Source: Candidatus Bathyarchaeota archaeon
GTDB taxonomy: Archaea; Thermoproteota; Bathyarchaeia; Bathyarchaeales; Bathycorpusculaceae
Length of the DNA: 64,000 bases
Assembly (NCBI GenBank): GCA_026014705.1
Contig: JAOZHU010000005.1
Coordinates: 1 to 64,000, forward strand
Reading direction: 5' to 3'
Below, piece by piece: positions 8,477 through 17,956 of this stretch (positions are counted from its first letter, which is position 1; each line of letters opens with the position of its first letter). The notes beneath the pieces were generated by a model. It was given only the letters and a program-made list of their open reading frames with translations, ran no database searches and had not been told where the DNA came from. The position numbers and the translations under genes are program-made.

Positions 8477-10603
8477 ATGAAATACGTGAGAAAACGTGAT
8501 GGTAAACTAGAACCCTTTGACCAAGAACGCATAACAACCGCAATTTGGAAAGCCGCCAAAGCCGTAGGCGGAAAAGACCGCGAGCAAGCCAAGCGCATAA
8601 GCGACCAAGTAATAGCTGAGCTTAAGAACCGCTTCGGCGAAGAAGGCTGCCCCACGGTTGAGGAAATCCAAGACATAGTTGAAAAAATGCTCATCGAAAA
8701 CGGTCACGCGCAAACCGCCAAAGCCTACATCCTCTACCGCAAACAGCATCAAGACATGCGCGAGTTAGCCGCGTTGCTCAGCTCCTCAGACATGGTGGAC
8801 CAGTACTTGGAGATTGAGGACTGGCGCGTTAAAGAGAACTCGAACATGAGCTACTCTTTGCAGGGCTTGAACAATTACCTTTCATCCACCGTCATCGCCA
8901 AATACTGGATAACACGAATTTACCCCTCAAACATTGCTGAAGCGCACTTTTCTGGTGACATGCACATCCACGACCTAGGAGTGTTGGGACCCTACTGCGT
9001 AGGCTGGGACGTAAGCGACTTACTGCTTTCAGGGTTCGGCGGCGTCGCAGGCAAAATCGAAAGCAAACCCGCAAAACATTTCCGCACAGCCTTAGGTCAA
9101 GTGGTAAACTTCTTCTACACGCTTCAGGGCGAAGCGGCAGGTGCGCAAGCGTTCAGCAACTTTGACACGTATTTGGCGCCGTTCATACGCTACGATGGAC
9201 TAGGGCAGAAAGAAGTGGAGCAGGCACTGCAGGAGTTCTTCTTCAACATGAACGTGCCTACCCGCGTGGGCTTCCAAACGCCGTTCACCAATTTGACTTT
9301 GGACCTGACAGTGCCTGACTTCATGAAGGACGAGGCAGTCATCTTCAACGGGAAAGTCTCCGCAGACACTTACGGCGACATGACTAAGGAAATGGAAATG
9401 TTCAACTTGGCGTTTTCCGATGTGATGCGGCAAGGCGACTCGAAAGGCAGAGTCTTCACTTTCCCCATACCCACCTACAACATAACCAAAGACTTCGACT
9501 GGAACTCGCCTGTAGCGCAGAAAATCTTCGAAGTGACCGCAAAGTACGGCGTTCCCTACTTTTCGAACTTTGTTAACAGTGACATGCGACCAGAAGACGT
9601 GCGGAGCATGTGCTGCCGCCTGAGGATAGATAACCGCGAGTTGCGCAAGCGCGGCGGTGGCTTCTTCGGCGCTAACCCGCTTACTGGCTCAATAGGCGTT
9701 GTCACGTTGAACATGCCGCGGTTGGGCTACCTGTCTAAAGACGAGGATGAATTCTTCCAGCGGCTGGAGACCCTGATGGAAGTCGCCAAGAGCAGCTTGG
9801 AAATAAAACGCAAGGCGCTTGAGGCGTTCACGGAGAATGGCTTGTACCCGTACTCGCGGCGTTACCTGCGCAACGTTAAAGAAGGCTACGGGAAATACTG
9901 GAAGAACCACTTCTCCACCATCGGCTTAGTAGGAATCAACGAAGCCGTGGTGAACCTTTTAGGCGTGAACATCGCGTCGCGGGATGGACAGGACTTTGCA
10001 GTTAAAGCGCTGAGGTTCATGCGCGAACGGCTAGCGGACTTCCAAGAGGAAACAGGCAACATCTATAATTTGGAGGCGACGCCTGCGGAAGGCACGTCTT
10101 ACAGGCTGGCGCGCATTGACAAGCGGAAGTACCCTGAAATTGCGGCGGCTAACCAGAAACAAGTAGTAACCCAGCACGCTGAGCCTTTCTACACCAATAG
10201 CAGTCAGTTGCCCGTGGATTTCGAAGGCGACTTGTTCGAGGCGCTGGAGCATCAGGAGCGGTTGCAGACGCTTTACACTGGTGGCACCGTGTTCCACATT
10301 TTCCTCGGCGAACGCTTGCACTCGTGGGAGTCAGCGGCTGAGCTTATACGCAAAGTGTCTTGGAACTCGCGTTTGCCGTATTTCACTTTGACACCCACGT
10401 TCAGCATATGCCCCAGCCATGGCTACACCAGCGGCGAACACAAGCAATGCCCAATCTGCGGCGCCCAATGCGAAGTGTACTCGCGCGTCGTCGGCTACCT
10501 GCGACCCGTTGACCAGTGGAACGACGGCAAACAGGCGGAATTTGCCATTCGCCGAACCTTCGACCGCTCCGTGGTGATGACCACAGCGCCCATGATTGCC
10601 TAA
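8477..10603 (+). CDS. nrdD: Anaerobic (class III) ribonucleoside-triphosphate reductase
   Basis: A 708-aa class III reductase making dNTPs from NTPs by glycyl-radical chemistry. An N-terminal ATP-cone (residues ~1-90, YVRKRDGKLEPFD) gives allosteric control. The catalytic barrel includes the thiyl-region Cys pair in RSMCCRLRID. A zinc site follows (CPSHGYTSG…CPICG). The glycyl-radical loop RVVGYLRP has G about 673, and WNDGKQAEF follows. GAGGAGG precedes the ATG. Cotranscribed with nrdR and the activase. Oxygen-sensitive, so the organism is an anaerobe. Nothing essential appears missing. Confidence 0.96.
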   Translation: MKYVRKRDGKLEPFDQERITTAIWKAAKAVGGKDREQAKRISDQVIAELKNRFGEEGCPTVEEIQDIVEKMLIENGHAQTAKAYILYRKQHQDMRELAALLSSSDMVDQYLEIEDWRVKENSNMSYSLQGLNNYLSSTVIAKYWITRIYPSNIAEAHFSGDMHIHDLGVLGPYCVGWDVSDLLLSGFGGVAGKIESKPAKHFRTALGQVVNFFYTLQGEAAGAQAFSNFDTYLAPFIRYDGLGQKEVEQALQEFFFNMNVPTRVGFQTPFTNLTLDLTVPDFMKDEAVIFNGKVSADTYGDMTKEMEMFNLAFSDVMRQGDSKGRVFTFPIPTYNITKDFDWNSPVAQKIFEVTAKYGVPYFSNFVNSDMRPEDVRSMCCRLRIDNRELRKRGGGFFGANPLTGSIGVVTLNMPRLGYLSKDEDEFFQRLETLMEVAKSSLEIKRKALEAFTENGLYPYSRRYLRNVKEGYGKYWKNHFSTIGLVGINEAVVNLLGVNIASRDGQDFAVKALRFMRERLADFQEETGNIYNLEATPAEGTSYRLARIDKRKYPEIAAANQKQVVTQHAEPFYTNSSQLPVDFEGDLFEALEHQERLQTLYTGGTVFHIFLGERLHSWESAAELIRKVSWNSRLPYFTLTPTFSICPSHGYTSGEHKQCPICGAQCEVYSRVVGYLRPVDQWNDGKQAEFAIRRTFDRSVVMTTAPMIA

Positions 10604-10617
10604 AAAGGGAAGTGCTT

Positions 10618-11295
10618 ATGAAGTTCAGCGGACTGCAGAAAATCAGTTTAATCGACTACCCGAACAAAGTAGCTTCTGTGCTTTACACGCCGGGCTGCAA
10701 CTTGCGCTGTCCTTTCTGCCATAACTGGCGCATAGTCGTAGACCCGAAGCCGCCTTTTCTTCAGGAGAACGCGGCTCTTGAGATCTTGGAGAGCCGCAAG
10801 AAATACGTGGACGCGGTTGTCGTGACTGGCGGAGAGCCAACAATGCACAAGGAGCTGCCCAAGTTTCTGGCGAAGCTGAAAGCGCGGGGTTTCTTGGTCA
10901 AGTTGGACACCAACGGGTTTTATCCCGAAGTGCTGGAGGAATGCTTGGCGCACGTGGACTATGTGGCGTTGGACTTGAAAACCTCGCTGAGCAAGTACAG
11001 GCTTTTGGGCGCTGAAGACACGACGTCGCTTGTGCGCACGGTGGAGATGCTGAAAACTGGGAAAGTACCTTATGAGTTCAGGACAACCATGGTGCCTGAA
11101 CTGGTGTCGGCTGAGGACATACCGCGCATGGCTGAGCTTGTGAAGGGCGCAAAGACCTATGCGTTTCAGCAGTTTGTGCCAATGGACACGCTTGACAAGC
11201 ATTTTGAGGCGGTTAAGCCTTACGCGCCAGAAACCCTAGCCGAGTTCGCGGAGATAATGAAGAAATACGCGGAAAACACAGTAATGCGCGTTTAG
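10618..11295 (+). CDS. nrdG: Anaerobic RNR-activating protein, radical SAM
   Basis: About 225 aa from the ATG at 10618, preceded by GGGAAG 5-10 bases upstream. The radical-SAM cluster motif CNLRCPFCH is at residues 27-35 (C27, C31, C34). It would cleave S-adenosylmethionine and place the glycyl radical on NrdD. It begins 14 bases after the nrdD stop. The VVTGGEPTMH segment is the usual SAM-binding GGE motif. The neighbour makes NrdG the best call, although related activases (pyruvate formate-lyase type) share this fold. Confidence 0.92.
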   Translation: MKFSGLQKISLIDYPNKVASVLYTPGCNLRCPFCHNWRIVVDPKPPFLQENAALEILESRKKYVDAVVVTGGEPTMHKELPKFLAKLKARGFLVKLDTNGFYPEVLEECLAHVDYVALDLKTSLSKYRLLGAEDTTSLVRTVEMLKTGKVPYEFRTTMVPELVSAEDIPRMAELVKGAKTYAFQQFVPMDTLDKHFEAVKPYAPETLAEFAEIMKKYAENTVMRV

Positions 11296-11389
11296 GCTTT
11301 CGCCCACTACCCTAAGCGGCAGCGCTGATTAAAACGCCGCCATAGTAGGTATCTAAAAAGTATGTAAATGAAATTTAGGAAACGGGTGG

Positions 11390-11845
11390 CTACTTGCGTT
11401 TTTCTTGCCCAATTTCCTTGGAGCGTCGCTGTATGAACTCGGCAACTTTCTCTTCACTGAGCTGCTTTTCTTCTTTCTGCTTCTGCAAGTGCTCCTTCAA
11501 CGTGCTGAGCAGTTCCTTCATTTTCGGCGGCTTAAGCACGTAGGCGTCTGCGCCCTTGTTAACAGCTTCAACAGCGTTCTGCAGCGCAGGGTAACCCGTG
11601 ATGATTATTTTCCGCATCCTAGGCGTAGTCTCCTTCATCGCCGTTAGAAGCTCCGTGCCCTCCATATCAGGCAAACGGATGTCAATCAGCGCGGCGTTGT
11701 AAAAGTTTTTATGCGTTTTTTCAATTGCTTTTTTACCATTTTCCGCCGTGTCCACAACATACCCGTTTTCTTCCAGTATGGCTGAAAAAGTTTTTCTCAC
11801 GCTTTCGTCATCGTCAACCACAAGAATTCTGTCCTGCTCTTTCAC
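11390..11845 (-). CDS. Single-domain response regulator paired with the CHASE4 kinase
   Basis: A 151-aa receiver-only regulator: ILVVDDDES, phospho-Asp in AALIDIRLPDMEG, Thr in IIITGYPAL, Lys in YVLKPPK, then a charged helical tail (KVAEFIQRRSKEIG). It overlaps the upstream kinase gene by four bases, so the pair is cotranslated. About 60% like the regulator at 7123-7596 by eye. No output domain, so the signal probably passes by protein contact, perhaps to the NitrOD5-like partner encoded at the head of the operon. Confidence 0.93.
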   Translation of the reverse strand: MKEQDRILVVDDDESVRKTFSAILEENGYVVDTAENGKKAIEKTHKNFYNAALIDIRLPDMEGTELLTAMKETTPRMRKIIITGYPALQNAVEAVNKGADAYVLKPPKMKELLSTLKEHLQKQKEEKQLSEEKVAEFIQRRSKEIGQEKRK

Positions 11846-13548
11846 CGTTTGTCACCTCCCTCTACTTTGGGTTGTACAGGGATAACTAACGTGAATTTTG
11901 TTCCTTCTCCAACTGTGCTTTCCACGGAAATTTTCCCGCCATGCGCCTCAATTATTCGTTTGCATATAGCCAAACCGAAGCCCATGCCCTTAGCTTTCGT
12001 TGTGAACAATGGTATAAAGATTCTTGCTAAAGTTTCTTTCGGTATGCCTAATCCAGTGTCAGCAAAAGAGACTTCTACTGCGTCTTTGGCTTTCTTACTC
12101 TTTATCGTAAGTTTTCCGCCTTCAGGCATTGCTTCCACGGCGTTTTTAAGGAAGTTAACAAAGGTTCGCTTCATCTTGTCCGCATCAACCATAATCCTCG
12201 GCTCATCTTCAGTGAAATCCTGCACTTGGACATTCGCCGGCACGTTTACAAGCGCCAAAGCTTCCTTCAACAACGCTTTAGGCGTGGTTTCCTTCAAATC
12301 CAACGTAATCGCCCTAGAATACTCTAACAGGTCATTCACGATTTTGTTCGCGTACTCCACATCTTTATCAATTACGTCCAGCATCTCGGTTACTTTAGAG
12401 TCAGAACCCGCAGCCGTTTTCATCCTTAAATAGTAAGCTGCGTTTGAGATGCCTGTCAAAGGGTTACGCAAATCATGCCCAACCATAGCCGCCAACTGCT
12501 CAATCGCCTTCAAACGCTGCTCCATCATAGAATCAATAGCATCAGCCAAAAGAGCCAACTCGTCTGTGCTGCTCCATGACAGGCGCTGCGAAACGTTTTT
12601 GCTTTCGCCTATCTTTTTAACTTCAGTCGCAAGCCGTTCCATGCGAGATAGTACTTGCTGCTCTACGATAATCAGGATTATCGCGCTGAAAATTACTCCT
12701 ATGCCGACTATCGATAACATGAAGTAGGTTATTGTGGCTTCGCCCTGTTTGTAGATGTCTCGGGTCATTTCCGCTTTCAGTATGAGCAAAGAGTTTCCAT
12801 AGATGTCTGAAATGAGCGCATACCCTGCGACCCTATCCGCGCTTAACGACTGAACGAAAACTGGCGCTTCCTGCGTCAAAGATTGGCTTGCAGTATAAAA
12901 GTCTGAATTGGCGTCTAAGGCATCAAGAAGTGTTGCAGATAACGGTAAATGCACCGTTTGAGCTAAATACTCCATTTCTTCAAAATCAAGGTAACGCCCA
13001 ATCAACAGTGCACCGCGAATTGGGCCTTCATGTTGACTTGTCAATATGGGTCTCGAAGCGATAAGCAACGGTGCTTCGCGTAGATTAATAACGCCTGTTA
13101 TTGCACTTTCGACGCTAAGATGCCTCCAAAGGGTATCGTTAGCTGAAACCAGTTCTGCGAGGCTCAGCGGAATCGGAGCGACTGTATTGTCTGGCTGGTA
13201 ACTCCTGCCAAAAACTATTCGACCAGAGGAGTCGATGAATACTGACAGGTCAACCCTAAGGTTAGCCCATGTAGGTGCATCCAGATTCCGCTCAATATAC
13301 TCTTCATTTGAGTCTTGAATGAATTGATAGGTTTCATCCCACTCCGCGTAGTCGCCAGCCTTACTGCTTAAATCAGCATACTCGTTGGACAGGACGCTGA
13401 GGGTTCTCTCAACGTTCTTCTGAGTGTTCTTCTCCTCTAATTTTTCAAAGCTTCGCAGCAGAATTAACTGTGAACTGGCATAGACTGCTGAAACTAGAAC
13501 GATACCCGCAAGAGCCATTATTATGAACACTTTTATGCGCAGCCGCAA
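11842..13548 (-). CDS. CHASE4-HAMP membrane histidine kinase
   Basis: A 568-aa sensor. It has TM1 at about residues 7-29 and an extracytoplasmic CHASE4 region at ~35-265, with the GDYAEWDETYQF signature near residue 64. TM2 lies at ~275-297, then HAMP, HisKA with MVGHDLRNPLTG (phospho-His), and a HATPase with NAVEAMPEGG, DTGLGIP and GFGLAICKRI. TTG start, six bases after the NitrOD5-like gene. It forms an operon NitrOD5–kinase–regulator on the minus strand. CHASE4 binds an unknown small external ligand. All catalytic boxes appear intact. Confidence 0.93.
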   Translation of the reverse strand: MRLRIKVFIIMALAGIVLVSAVYASSQLILLRSFEKLEEKNTQKNVERTLSVLSNEYADLSSKAGDYAEWDETYQFIQDSNEEYIERNLDAPTWANLRVDLSVFIDSSGRIVFGRSYQPDNTVAPIPLSLAELVSANDTLWRHLSVESAITGVINLREAPLLIASRPILTSQHEGPIRGALLIGRYLDFEEMEYLAQTVHLPLSATLLDALDANSDFYTASQSLTQEAPVFVQSLSADRVAGYALISDIYGNSLLILKAEMTRDIYKQGEATITYFMLSIVGIGVIFSAIILIIVEQQVLSRMERLATEVKKIGESKNVSQRLSWSSTDELALLADAIDSMMEQRLKAIEQLAAMVGHDLRNPLTGISNAAYYLRMKTAAGSDSKVTEMLDVIDKDVEYANKIVNDLLEYSRAITLDLKETTPKALLKEALALVNVPANVQVQDFTEDEPRIMVDADKMKRTFVNFLKNAVEAMPEGGKLTIKSKKAKDAVEVSFADTGLGIPKETLARIFIPLFTTKAKGMGFGLAICKRIIEAHGGKISVESTVGEGTKFTLVIPVQPKVEGGDKR

Positions 13549-13976: not shown

Positions 13977-14140
13977 ACGAAGCAGATGATTAGGCAAACT
14001 CGTTGGCTTCGCAGAATGCAGAACACGCGGAAAGCGAACAACCAACAACTTTTGAAAGCACCGCCACTTTTTGCACCATAAAGTTTAAGGGTTGATGTTT
14101 TGTTTAGGTTTCGAGTATTCTACAGGTTGAGGTTTGCGGT

Positions 14141-14692
14141 TTGAGCATTAAAGGCGAAACAGTGGAAGAACGCAAAGCTGAAGTTCTGATTAAACTCAGA
14201 AAATACAAGCTAATCAAAAAAGAAGCGTACGAAGGCGCCTTGGCGTACATCGTTGAAATTCCAGGCGAGAAAGAAAAAACCCTTGTCTGGTGCATCCTGA
14301 ACGAAGCCACAGTCGGCATAAACGCCATGAACACGCTTTACAAAGTCATGAAGGAAAAGGAAATCGAAAAAGCCATCGTGGTGACGGAAGGACGCTACAC
14401 GCACGCGGTTAAACAAGGCGCCAAGAAGAAGAACGTGGAGCTCCTGCCCAAGTCTTTCCCAGTTTTCGACATTTTCGAGCACGCGCTGGTGCCGCTGCAC
14501 GAAATCCTCGGCGAAAAAGAGAAGGAACAGCTTCTTGCGCAGTTTAAGGTTCAGCCTTATCAGATTCCGCAGATAAAATCCGCTGATCCCGCAGTGAAAG
14601 CCATCGGTGCCAAGCCAGGCGACATACTGAAGATTACGCGGAAAAGCTCTACGGCAGGCGAGCACGTGGCTTACCGTTACGTAGTCGAATAA
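14141..14692 (+). CDS. rpo5: RNA polymerase subunit H with eukaryote-like Rpb5 N-terminal domain
   Basis: A 183-aa protein. Residues ~110-183 are the assembly domain shared by archaeal Rpo5/RpoH and Rpb5 (EHALVPLHEIL…YQIPQIKSADPAVKAIGAKPG…GEHVAYRYVVE). Residues ~1-108 match the Rpb5 jaw domain in order: VGI at 58-60, a helix with M-x-E-x-EIEKAIVV at ~70-81, T-H-AVKQ at ~87-91, FDIFEHALVP at ~109-118. Most archaeal RpoH proteins are only ~80 aa and lack this jaw. TTG start with GAGGT upstream. It stands apart from any rpoB/rpoA genes, so it may be the sole subunit or a paralogue. Confidence 0.88.
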   Translation: MSIKGETVEERKAEVLIKLRKYKLIKKEAYEGALAYIVEIPGEKEKTLVWCILNEATVGINAMNTLYKVMKEKEIEKAIVVTEGRYTHAVKQGAKKKNVELLPKSFPVFDIFEHALVPLHEILGEKEKEQLLAQFKVQPYQIPQIKSADPAVKAIGAKPGDILKITRKSSTAGEHVAYRYVVE

Positions 14693-14706: not shown

Positions 14707-15066
14707 TTAACCTGGTTTTTGCTTGTTTCCAGTTTTCTTTTCGGATAGAAACTCGCTTAGGCAGGTTTCCAGGCGCTTGTACTCGGAGAGCAGGCTCTTT
14801 CCTGTCTTTGTCAGTTTTGCGCCTCCGCCGCCGGCTTTGCCGCCTTTGTAGGTTTCCACTATTGGCTCACCTATGGTTTTTTCGATTTTTTTTAGGTAAT
14901 TCCATACATAGCGGTAGGACATACCTAATGCTTCAGCGGCTTTTGTTATCGAGTTTTCTGCGGCTATGCTCTGGAGGATTTCTGCTCCGCCTTTTCCGAT
15001 TAAGGGTTTTCCTTCGTGTTCTATCCATATTTTGGCTGAGAGCGTGTGTTTTTTGTGGTTGCTCAT
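14707..15066 (-). CDS. ModE-type molybdate/tungstate-responsive HTH regulator
   Basis: About 119 aa from the ATG at 15066. It has the ModE N-terminal winged helix: KIWIEHEGKPLIGKGGAEILQSI, then SITKAAEALGMSYRYVWNYLKKIE, then GGKAGGGGAKLTKTG. It lacks the C-terminal MOP/TOBE oxyanion-binding domain of full ModE, so ligand sensing is unclear. Divergent from tupA with a ModE-like inverted repeat between the two genes. It likely represses tupABC, and perhaps itself, when tungstate is plentiful. Confidence 0.9.
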   Translation of the reverse strand: MSNHKKHTLSAKIWIEHEGKPLIGKGGAEILQSIAAENSITKAAEALGMSYRYVWNYLKKIEKTIGEPIVETYKGGKAGGGGAKLTKTGKSLLSEYKRLETCLSEFLSEKKTGNKQKPG

Positions 15067-15105
15067 GTTTTTAGAGTTAAGTGTCGTAAAGGTTATAAGG
15101 TTAAT

Positions 15106-15129
15106 CGTTATGAACAACAAAACATAACG
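15106..15129. promoter_or_regulatory. ModE-like operator between modE-type gene and tupA
   Basis: A perfect inverted repeat CGTTATG-N10-CATAACG. Its CGTTAT/ATAACG core is the same as in the E. coli ModE site upstream of modA. It begins 40 bases from the regulator start and ends ten bases before the tupA ATG, covering the expected tupA start site downstream of a TTATAA element at 15091-15096. Location and symmetry argue for repression by the neighbouring ModE-type protein. Confidence 0.75.
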
Positions 15130-15139
15130 TGTATCTGAA

Positions 15140-16132
15140 ATGCACACATGGCAAAAACTAATCATAATCGCAACACTATCAACCGTAATCCTAATCGCTG
15201 GCACAGTAGCCTACTTCAACTACTTCGCCAAAAGACGCCTAATAATCTCCACAACCACAAGCCTCTACGACACAGCACTGCTGGACGAAATCGAAAAACG
15301 CTACGAAACAACCCACAACGTGGACATCAACATAATCTCCGCAGGAACAGGCATAGCCATCCAACACGCTCAGAACGGCGACGCCGACATCATCCTCATC
15401 CACTCACCAGCCATGGAAAAAACCTTCCTCGAGCAAGGCTACGGCGTAAACAGGAAAATAATTGCCTACAACTTCTTCACCATCGTCGGACCCGAAAATG
15501 ACCCAGCGGGAGTCACGGGAAAAAACGCAACCGAAGCGCTAAAAAGCATAGCAGTCTATGGCGAAAGATTAGCTGACCAGTCGGGACAAACCAAAGTATG
15601 GGTCTCTCGAGGCGACAACTCGGGCACACATTCCAAAGAGCAGAACCTCTGGAAAGCCGCAGGCTACAACTACACGCTTGTATCTGCTGAACCATGGTAC
15701 GCAAGCGTAGGCTCAGGCATGGGCGACACCTTGAACGTGGCTAACCAAAAAACAGCCTACACACTCGCAGACATAGGTACCTACTTGAAATTCTACACCG
15801 ACGGCGTAATCTCCTTGTCTGCGCTGATAACTGAAGAGCAAGCTTTGCTTAACGTCTACAGCGTCATGGCTGTAAACCAAACCTACCACGAGCAAATAAA
15901 CTACGCGGACGCCATGGACTTCATCGAATACTTGGTATCCGATGAGGCACAACAGTTCATAACAGACTACGGCAAAGCCGATTATGGGAAAAGCCTCTTC
16001 TACGGCGCAGTGCAACCACTAAAGAGCAACGCTCCCCAGCCGATAGTCAGTTGGATAAAAAGCGCCGCCTTCTTCGACGGTTCCGAGTGCCCACCGCAAT
16101 ACAGAAAAAACTACCCGCAACTTTACAGTTAG
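15140..16132 (+). CDS. tupA: Tungstate-binding protein of ABC transporter
   Basis: A 330-aa periplasmic-type binding protein. Residues ~5-28 form a membrane anchor (LIIIATLSTVILIAGTVAYF). RLIISTTTSLYDTALLDEI holds the TTTS oxyanion loop typical of TupA, followed by ISAGTGIAIQHAQNGDADIILIHS. VSRGDNSGTHSKE is a second ligand loop. TupA binds tungstate far more tightly than molybdate. First gene of tupABC, behind the ModE-like operator. Tungsten would serve enzymes such as tungsten-dependent formylmethanofuran dehydrogenase or aldehyde oxidoreductases, which are not in this window. Confidence 0.92.
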   Translation: MHTWQKLIIIATLSTVILIAGTVAYFNYFAKRRLIISTTTSLYDTALLDEIEKRYETTHNVDINIISAGTGIAIQHAQNGDADIILIHSPAMEKTFLEQGYGVNRKIIAYNFFTIVGPENDPAGVTGKNATEALKSIAVYGERLADQSGQTKVWVSRGDNSGTHSKEQNLWKAAGYNYTLVSAEPWYASVGSGMGDTLNVANQKTAYTLADIGTYLKFYTDGVISLSALITEEQALLNVYSVMAVNQTYHEQINYADAMDFIEYLVSDEAQQFITDYGKADYGKSLFYGAVQPLKSNAPQPIVSWIKSAAFFDGSECPPQYRKNYPQLYS

Positions 16133-16144
16133 AGGCTCACAACA

Positions 16145-16864
16145 ATGGTTGACGTACTCGGCGGCATAATAAAAGCATTCGAGTTAATAGCTACAGGCGA
16201 CCCAACGCTTTACGGTATAGTCGCGCGCACTCTGTTTTTCTCAAGCATCGCCGTCGTGTTAGCCATGCTGTGGGGAACGCCTATCGCATTGCTAATAAGC
16301 CTCAGAAACTTCCGAGGCAGAACAATAATCAAAGCGTTCTTCAACTCTCTGATAGGCGTACCCACCGTGGTTCTCGGTTTAGTGCTGTTTCTCATTTTTT
16401 CAAAAAGCGGACCCTTAGGCTTTTTAGGCCTGCTTTACACACCTGCAGCCATAATCCTCGGCGAAGCCGTGCTTGTAACGCCCATACTGATCAGCATAAT
16501 GTCCAACGCCATAGAGGCAGTTGACCCAGAAATCATGAACTTGGCGAAAACACTGGGCGCCTCAGAATCGCAAGCAGCAATAGCCGTGCTGAAGGAAGCG
16601 TTAAACGGCGTCCTCCTAAGCAACATCGCCAGCTTCAATCGGGCAATCGCCGAGTTGGGCGTCGCGCTGCTTGTAGGCGGCAACATAGCAGGCTTAACTG
16701 ACGTGCTGACAACCGCGATTTCGCGTTACACAGCGAGAGGCGAACTGGACTTCGCTATTGCACTGGGAATACTGTTGATGCTCATAGTGTTCGGGATAAA
16801 CGTGGTGTTGATTATGGCGCGGAAAGCGAAAATGCTGTTCACGCTGTGGAGAAATCCGCAGTAG
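16145..16864 (+). CDS. tupB: Tungstate ABC transporter permease
   Basis: A 239-aa inner-membrane permease with about five or six membrane segments (e.g. TLFFSSIAVVLAMLWGTPIAL, VPTVVLGLVLFLIF, ILLMLIVFGINVVLIM). The EAA-loop lies near EIMNLAKTLGASESQA…VLKEALNGVLL. It begins 12 bases after tupA. Highly similar in plan to TupB; it forms the channel for the oxyanion. Confidence 0.92.
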   Translation: MVDVLGGIIKAFELIATGDPTLYGIVARTLFFSSIAVVLAMLWGTPIALLISLRNFRGRTIIKAFFNSLIGVPTVVLGLVLFLIFSKSGPLGFLGLLYTPAAIILGEAVLVTPILISIMSNAIEAVDPEIMNLAKTLGASESQAAIAVLKEALNGVLLSNIASFNRAIAELGVALLVGGNIAGLTDVLTTAISRYTARGELDFAIALGILLMLIVFGINVVLIMARKAKMLFTLWRNPQ

Positions 16865-16897
16865 GCAGGATTGTTGACTGGAGGTTAAGAGAAACTG

Positions 16898-17956
16898 GTG
16901 ATAACAGCTGAATTGAAGAACGTAACCAAAGCATACGGAGACAAAACCGTAGTTGACCAAGTCAACTTGCAGATACAGGAAGGCGAAATCCTAGCGCTTC
17001 TGGGACCGAACGGTTCGGGAAAAACAACCCTGCTGAAAATCCTAGCGTTAATCGAAGCACCCACAAGCGGCGTGGTTGAATTTCAAAGCGAAGCGGTTAC
17101 CGCAAAAAACGCTGAACAACTGCGCATGCAAAGCACTCTCGTGTTTCAGAAAACCACCCTTTTCGACTCTACAGTTTACAGTAACGTGGCTTACGGCTTA
17201 AAAATTAGGAAAATCCCCAGAGAAGTGCTTGATGAAAAAGTGGCGAAGGCACTGAAGCTTGTGAAGCTGGAAGGCTTCGAGAAACGCCCCGCAAAAAAGC
17301 TCTCAGGCGGAGAACAACAACGCGTAGCAATAGCCCGCGCAGTGGCGCTTAAGACCAAGCTTCTGCTCTTGGACGAGCCTACAGCGAACTTAGACCCAAA
17401 AAACGCCGCCATTATTGAGGAAGTCATCGCTGCAGTTAACCGCGAAGACAAAACCACCATCGTTATGGCTACGCACAACATGTTCCAAGCAAAAGCCTTG
17501 CCCCACCGCATAGCGCTGATGAACGAGGGAAAAATAACCGAGGTCGGCTCGCCCGCAGACGTTTTCGGCAACCTCTCTCGGAACCTAGCGCGGTTCGCCG
17601 CGGTGGACAACACTTTCGCTGGAACCGCCAAGGCAACGGCGGCGGGCACAACGATGGTAGACATAGGCAACGGCGTGCAGATTGAAGTCACAGCGCAGAA
17701 ACGAGGTGAAGTTTCCCTGTTCGTTAACCCTCAAGACATTATTCTCTCCAAAAGCGCGGTGGAATCCAGCGCCCGAAACGTTTTCAAAGGCAAAATAACG
17801 GAAATCAAGGATTTGGGCTCGCTGGTGAAGCTTAAGGTTAACGTGGGCAAGCCTTTCACGGTTCAGATAACTAAACGCTCCTTCATTGAGATGGGGCTTA
17901 ACTTGAACTCCGAAATCTACATTGCCTTCAAAGCGTCAAGCGTGCAAGTGCTTTAG
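16898..17956 (+). CDS. tupC: Tungstate ABC transporter ATPase with C-terminal TOBE-like domain
   Basis: A 352-aa ATPase from a GTG at 16898 (GGAGG lies ~18 bases upstream). Walker A LGPNGSGKTT, Q-loop VFQKTT, signature LSGGEQQRVAIARA, Walker B LLLLDEPTANLD, then the switch His in MATHNMFQA. After residue ~270 a TOBE-like region (FKGKITEIKDLGSLVKLKV) could bind oxyanion and regulate transport. Longer than minimal TupC (~240 aa) because of this tail. Third gene of the tup operon. Confidence 0.92.
   Translation: MITAELKNVTKAYGDKTVVDQVNLQIQEGEILALLGPNGSGKTTLLKILALIEAPTSGVVEFQSEAVTAKNAEQLRMQSTLVFQKTTLFDSTVYSNVAYGLKIRKIPREVLDEKVAKALKLVKLEGFEKRPAKKLSGGEQQRVAIARAVALKTKLLLLDEPTANLDPKNAAIIEEVIAAVNREDKTTIVMATHNMFQAKALPHRIALMNEGKITEVGSPADVFGNLSRNLARFAAVDNTFAGTAKATAAGTTMVDIGNGVQIEVTAQKRGEVSLFVNPQDIILSKSAVESSARNVFKGKITEIKDLGSLVKLKVNVGKPFTVQITKRSFIEMGLNLNSEIYIAFKASSVQVL

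Follow-up and report, generated by a model that had tools for sequence, protein, structure and literature searches.

The rpoH locus and its product

The window analysed here is a 64,000-nt stretch of a contig of Candidatus Bathyarchaeota archaeon (JAOZHU010000005.1, forward strand). It contains a long two-domain form of the gene for RNA polymerase subunit H, rpoH/rpo5 (14141..14692, + strand, stop codon included). The gene codes for 183 aa, as the original prediction had it, and begins with a TTG codon preceded at a distance of 7 nt by GAGGT (14129..14133, +), the likely ribosome-binding site. The product comprises an N-terminal domain (residues 1-106; 14141..14458, +) with an inactive Mrr-type restriction-endonuclease fold resembling the jaw of RPB5, and a C-terminal assembly domain (residues 109-181; 14465..14683, +) aligned with positions 1-73 of PF01191. 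A sigma-70 scan, with a model that is not apt for archaea, gave no match.

Genes for an anaerobic ribonucleotide reductase (NRDD) and a radical SAM protein, followed on the other strand by a CHASE4 histidine kinase and a response regulator, occupy positions 8477-13548 of the window. On the other side of rpoH, at 14707-17956, a convergent HTH_1 regulator is followed by a substrate-binding protein, a permease and an ABC ATPase with a TOBE domain, a gene set that we take to be of the molybdate/tungstate uptake type; similar uptake-type genes are found near rpoH in about ten relatives. The neighbour clusters of rpoH that were viewed are shared by members of the same group of relatives, and no functional hint came from the operon partners in them.

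The assembly domain is that of an ordinary subunit H, in line with what was predicted for the last ~74 residues: residues 109-181 match PF01191 (RNA_pol_Rpb5_C) with an E-value of 4.2e-29 and 100.6 bits (cut-off 23.5), and the NCBIfam subunit H model NF007129 scores 104.6 bits (cut-off 83). This part is like the ordinary archaeal RpoH/Rpo5 of ~80 aa: structural alignment gives 53-59% identity with the subunits from Thermococcus and Pyrococcus, and the gene role is the same. The ordinary protein lacks the N-terminal domain, and the gene of the long form is not located in front of rpoB. A search of the window's genome (G000, 96.4% complete) for a second, short rpoH found none, PF01191 having one match in all. 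The long form is thus the only rpoH found there, and the suggestion that it is kept as a paralogue beside a short one falls away. Judged from its sequence, the 183-aa protein is probably the working subunit H (Rpo5) of the bathyarchaeal RNA polymerase.

The gene was also said to lie outside any rpoB/rpoA cluster, and this holds: rpoB and rpoA are encoded together elsewhere in the genome, with no rpoH in front. This cluster is found on contig 38 (L172:2444-9673, - strand) and consists of rpoB and a single rpoA frame of 1277 aa, in which, by length and sequence, A' and A'' are in one piece.

The two-domain structure could in principle be an artefact, arising from a wrong start or from an assembly error by which an ordinary RpoH of 75 aa acquired an unrelated frame. 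This reading is already contradicted by the data. The N-terminal domain is kept in 49 relatives with 16-83% identity, start codons are present at the matching place in relatives (the start nearest to the projected one being picked), and several of 10 relatives have a purine-rich stretch comparable to GAGGT at the same upstream place. Among the matches listed, the same fusion occurs in 86 of 151 genomes of the class; it is also encoded at 14 loci in named records with 66-82% identity, assigned to Bathyarchaeota, Bathycorpusculum, Nitrososphaerota archaeon and the miscellaneous Crenarchaeota group. The ratio pN/pS is 0.153 for the N-terminal domain and 0.132 for the C-terminal one (66 pairs, 12 genes of equal length), and third codon positions change most in both. 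Residues 1-106 form a real domain that, like the C-terminal domain, is under purifying selection. Conservation, GAGGT, the start codons of relatives and this selection together contradict a start near residue 108, and an artefact is practically excluded.

A nuclease fold without its catalytic motif

The family assignment of the N-terminal domain was made with two sets of sequences, an alignment of 60 long forms, which excludes copies and close relatives as well as L049, whose frame has an odd insert, and L116, whose frame is broken, and a set of N-terminal domains comprising 50 of these 60 rows. Residues 1-108 had been expected to match the Pfam profile RNA_pol_Rpb5_N (PF03871). They do not: the profile matches neither the window's protein nor any of the 60 long forms or 50 N-terminal domains at E<=0.1 (complete lists), and across 200 genomes it has no match over the cut-off and weak matches in two, neither being the window's genome. 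The four RPB5 N-terminal domains used as positive control are all matched (4/4). By the letter this speaks against the original prediction, which had named the lack of such a match, or an unrelated fold, as counting against it; the fold, on the other hand, is that of the RPB5 jaw.

The profile that does match is Mrr_cat (PF04471), with 33.9 bits for the window's protein (cut-off 21) and an E-value of 1e-8 for the domain alone. Mrr_cat is matched by 59 and NA-iREase1 by 58 of the 60 long forms at E<=0.1, a threshold distinct from the curated cut-off, against which these matches were not each held; at E<=10 the counts are 60/60 and 59/60 among the best 25 of 34 families listed. The RPB5 N-terminal domains also match Mrr_cat, weakly (3/4, best E-value 0.0025). 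Two reports describe the N-terminal domain of yeast RPB5 as a catalytically inactive PD-(D/E)XK fold (PMC1185551, PMC551604). Since the yeast jaw is itself an inactive restriction-endonuclease fold, an Mrr-type match is no rival to the reading of this domain as a jaw.

Matches to Mrr_cat in 59 of 60 long forms at E<=0.1 might be taken to indicate an active nuclease carried by the polymerase, which the residues at the catalytic site make highly improbable. In the MAFFT alignment Ala35 (14243..14245, +) stands where Mrr-type and standalone relatives have Asp; this column, which presumably corresponds to the metal-site Asp of PD-(D/E)XK enzymes, is acidic in only 4 of the 60 long forms. Where the nuclease site would have its (E/Q)xK half, the protein has V-W-C-I (residues 49-52; 14285..14296, +), and neither (E/Q)xK nor (E/Q/D)xK is found at the next strand in any of the 60. 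The N-terminal domain is a Mrr-type restriction-endonuclease fold without the nuclease motif. It shares this fold (Z 9.5-10.2 for the N-terminal domain against the best EndoMS/NucS and AF1548 chains) and the Mrr_cat profile with Mrr-type restriction endonucleases, EndoMS/NucS and AF1548, and differs from them in the absence of the nuclease motif.

Likeness to RPB5 is evident at the level of sequence profiles. A profile of the N-terminal domain alone, compared with PDB sequences, finds RPB5 N-terminal domains first, with E-values of 1.2e-6 for Drosophila, ~2e-4 for mammals, 3.8e-4 for Arabidopsis and 0.24 for yeast, and no restriction enzyme appears among the 23 sequences listed to E 10. The predicted collinearity of this domain with RPB5 is thus beyond chance. 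Profiles of the two closest standalone families, compared with the PDB in the same way, do not list RPB5 at E<=10. In hhalign the likeness of the RpoH and RPB5 N-terminal domains is partial (E 1.4e-6, 45 columns, probability 90), and it could reflect a common origin. With 20 random subsets of 8 rows, hhalign scores to the RPB5 N-terminal domain are 27.3-42.1 for RpoH, 20.8-25.1 for a standalone ~190-aa family and 15.7-15.8 for a ~120-aa one, the subsets of the latter always being the same 8 rows.

The AlphaFold2 model of the whole protein has a mean pLDDT of 87.8. Foldseek against the PDB places RPB5-type chains at ranks 1-32 (best E-value 1.2e-15, TM 0.77), and in VIA-align, in whose lists the absence of a family is no ground for excluding that family, the two domains of the model superpose jointly on RPB5 (Z 17.7, 3.0 A over 178 of 183 residues, 28% identity), as against EndoMS (Z 10.4) and AF1548 (Z 10.1), which align with the N-terminal domain only. 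For this domain alone the scores are tied (EndoMS 10.2, RPB5 9.9, AF1548 9.9), so RPB5 is singled out by sequence and by the arrangement with the C-terminal domain, and not by the fold. The structural comparison with RPB5 that had been proposed as a check comes out in favour of the prediction at the level of the model. This predicted structure gives good support to a restriction-endonuclease-fold domain that sits against the assembly domain in the manner of RPB5.

With RPB5 (RPABC1) the long form shares the domain order, a near-zero linker, an inactive restriction-endonuclease fold in front, the predicted packing and a TPSA-like loop. It differs in that the RPB5 N-terminal domain has ~140 residues as against ~106, with ~30 extra residues that RpoH lacks and an insertion, also missing from RpoH, after the RGY strand and before the strand that follows it; in addition, RPB5 N-terminal domains match Pfam Rpb5_N, while those of RpoH do not, and the C-terminal domain of the long form is archaeal. 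Of the proposed fuller Rpb5, what stands is an RpoH with an RPB5-like N-terminal domain, as indicated by profile, superposition and hhalign; a domain recognised as Rpb5_N it is not.

The loop R85-Y-T-H-A-V-K91 (14393..14413, +) corresponds in the alignment to TPSA(K), the loop by which RPB5 contacts DNA. In its columns Thr is present in 56 and Lys or Arg at position 91 in 59 of the 60 long forms, and the Pro of TPSA is not conserved. R20, G59, T87 and E100 are invariant or nearly so, T87 aligning with the Thr of the TPSA loop, which is reported to touch downstream DNA (PMC6690254). Thr at this place is found in other Mrr-type proteins too, and T87 is thus no proof of a jaw.

The domain may instead be a peripheral DNA- or protein-binding module with merely the same fold, such as a site at which a repair or defence factor docks. 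NA-iREase1, which also matches, is a family named as inactive restriction endonuclease, and the match by fold alone is tied with nucleases, both of which fit such a module. The whole-chain superposition retains the RPB5 domain arrangement and the TPSA-like loop belongs to the conserved regions of the domain, and we regard this explanation as improbable. Function as a jaw is likely, and from the single-chain model the domain would dock at the jaw position of the polymerase.

Distribution and origin of the long form

The class Bathyarchaeia is divided between the two forms of the gene. Among the matches listed, 86 of 151 genomes have a long and 50 a short rpoH, a tally that leaves out G066 (only a weak match), G396 (where the gene lies at the end of a contig) and 13 genomes for which no match was listed; among the same matches no genome has both forms, nor has any family code. 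The short rpoH directly precedes rpoB at 13 of 13 loci in the class, representing 11 families, and at 23 of 26 loci in the rest of the phylum. Across the 106 long-form stretches, several of which repeat one place and whose flanks of 0.1-6.8 kb are in many cases short, rpoB was not found. One long-form locus (L037) has a fragment of rpoA on the opposite strand, 3.7 kb upstream.

In 300 genomes of the phylum all matches to the N-terminal domain below E 1e-15 are within Bathyarchaeia; outside the class there are three weak ones (9.2e-9 to 7.7e-8), in frames of 426-582 codons. The full-length profile gave 67 pattern matches in viral contigs, among which no relative was confirmed.

In profile comparison the nearest relatives of the domain are a standalone bathyarchaeal family of ~190 aa (E 7e-21, 98 columns), then a standalone family of ~120 aa (1.6e-10), and then the RPB5 N-terminal domain (1.4e-6). 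The ~190-aa family, also represented in the window's genome (G000:C38:115938-116246, L135:1240-1803:-; further members L117 and L174-L181), has a Mrr-type domain with an incomplete nuclease site and a C-terminal part with conserved Cys residues (C..KCG..P..ESDCKG...C.VR) and the motif FHFERGW. Two members have no NCBIfam match, and in Pfam only Mrr_cat and NA-iREase1 match, mostly weakly. The (E/Q)xK motif is absent from the aligned rows of this family too, while it differs from the RpoH domain in having no polymerase domain, in keeping the Asp that most RpoH N-terminal domains lost, and in not being clearly like the RPB5 N-terminal domain (probability 12). Members of a standalone Mrr-like family of ~110-150 aa (L150, L155, L157, L159, L161, L187-L189) mostly carry the motif K-D/E-W-x-R-T-V/I-G-V/I-N, and many further weak matches occur in frames of like length; L155 has no NCBIfam match. 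Three long RpoH proteins (L113, L118 and L182) look intermediate by eye, the Asp being kept in L113 and L118.

In the tree of C-terminal domains (77 columns, poorly resolved; long rows over 88% alike, L116 and L119 left out) the long forms group with the archaeal short ones, and the eukaryotes are apart (100/100). In neither tree do the long forms come out as a single group, with three changes in the C-domain tree and three in the N-domain tree, so repeated fusion or loss is possible. The N-domain tree was built without RpoH rows over 62% alike, rows of the ~190-aa family more than 90% alike, and matches that scored below 14 bits or covered fewer than ~55 profile positions; its outgroup is poor, as it contains only six true Mrr rows, all from Bathyarchaeia. 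With RPB5 included, this tree is unresolved and has a long eukaryotic branch (2.53) weakly placed beside L113 (82/17). In AU tests p is 0.119 for RpoH N-terminal domains alone, 0.285 for these with RPB5, 0.418 for these with the ~190-aa family and without RPB5, and 0.418 for RPB5 with Mrr and the ~120-aa family. Neither a joint origin with RPB5 nor an independent one is rejected by the N-domain trees.

A single inherited fusion would account for the presence of the same design in both groups. An archaeal ancestor would have had a two-domain RpoH, or the gene would have been transferred, and most archaea would have lost the jaw that Bathyarchaeia and eukaryotes kept. The identical domain order, near-zero linker and predicted packing are consistent with this, as are the rank of RPB5 as best PDB match of the N-domain profile, its likeness to RpoH above that of the standalone relatives in the hhalign subsets, and the p-AU of 0.285 for a clade of both. 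It is at odds with the archaeal character of the long-form C-terminal domains, set apart from eukaryotes by a branch with 100/100 support, with the lack of strong N-domain matches in sampled genomes of the phylum outside the class, with the short form adjoining rpoB in 11 bathyarchaeal families, and with the closer relationship of the domain to a standalone family (7e-21) than to RPB5 (1.4e-6). A single fusion is thus a serious but clearly less probable explanation. Equally tentative is its corollary, that the "eukaryote-specific" RPB5 jaw is an archaeal invention surviving in Bathyarchaeia, the fusion predating eukaryotes or having passed between the stems; long RpoH would then be a surviving relative of the protein from which eukaryotic RPB5 descended.

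The archaeal C-terminal domains, the bathyarchaeal standalone family as nearest N-domain profile and the intermediate-looking long RpoH proteins favour a gain inside the class. Independent gain of an RPB5-like jaw in this lineage is accordingly the favoured reading, a separate origin being more likely than a shared one. Within Bathyarchaeia rpoH would have left its place before rpoB and been joined to a dead nuclease domain of the local standalone family, replacing the short gene, and eukaryotes would have reached the same design separately. The whole explanation, a working Rpo5 with a jaw made from a dead nuclease, gained in this lineage and separately from eukaryotes, has in our estimate a probability of roughly 0.6.

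Proposed role of the jaw and its variants

According to the preferred reading, a dead Mrr-type nuclease domain was fused directly ahead of the assembly domain, against which it is predicted to sit as the jaw does in eukaryotic RPB5. In the assembled enzyme it would form a lower jaw where the DNA cleft ends downstream. The loop R-Y-T-x-A/S-A-K may grip the incoming duplex DNA, as RPB5 does with its TPSA loop, and the jaw would steady open-complex formation and elongation rather than cut DNA. A description of the Sulfolobus enzyme has Rpo13 occupying a groove that the missing jaw leaves open, and terms the jaw eukaryote-specific (PMC2675907); the long Rpo5 may fill in Bathyarchaeia the place that Rpo13 takes in Sulfolobus.

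Archaeal RpoH is stated to lack an N-terminal domain, or the jaw is called eukaryote-specific, in three papers (PMC3906176, PMC6690254, PMC2675907). A 2026 survey of the subunits of archaeal polymerases deals with Rpo6 and Rpo8; in its accessible part no Rpo5 N-terminal domain was found (PMC13257274); no statement on a jaw was found in the parts available of the Asgard literature (PMC13257274, PMC8160253, PMC5484517). No report of a jawed archaeal RpoH was found in a literature search covering largely sources other than subscription papers and preprints. As far as this search reached, jawed Rpo5 is a real, clade-wide variant that was previously unreported. Either one and the same part of the polymerase was made twice out of this dead nuclease fold, which would be a strong example of convergence in essential machinery, or the jaw of eukaryotes has archaeal roots. 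The presence of both long and short forms in the class allows enzymes with and without a jaw to be compared among relatives.

Several genomes encode more than one long rpoH: L106, L107 and L108 in G324, L182 and L184 in G425, where one has a divergent N-terminal domain, and L048 and L115 in G035. Genomes with two or three long paralogues possibly have alternative polymerases or exchange of the subunit. One genome (G348) encodes a free-standing N-terminal domain of 104 aa (L114:10473-10784, -) and, at a distance of ~4.9 kb, also a long rpoH that is complete (L114:5054-5590, -). In another, a second rpoH copy (L116:4880-5414; G001 C11:326379-326913) is broken into three pieces in different frames, and an intact copy is present elsewhere in the genome.
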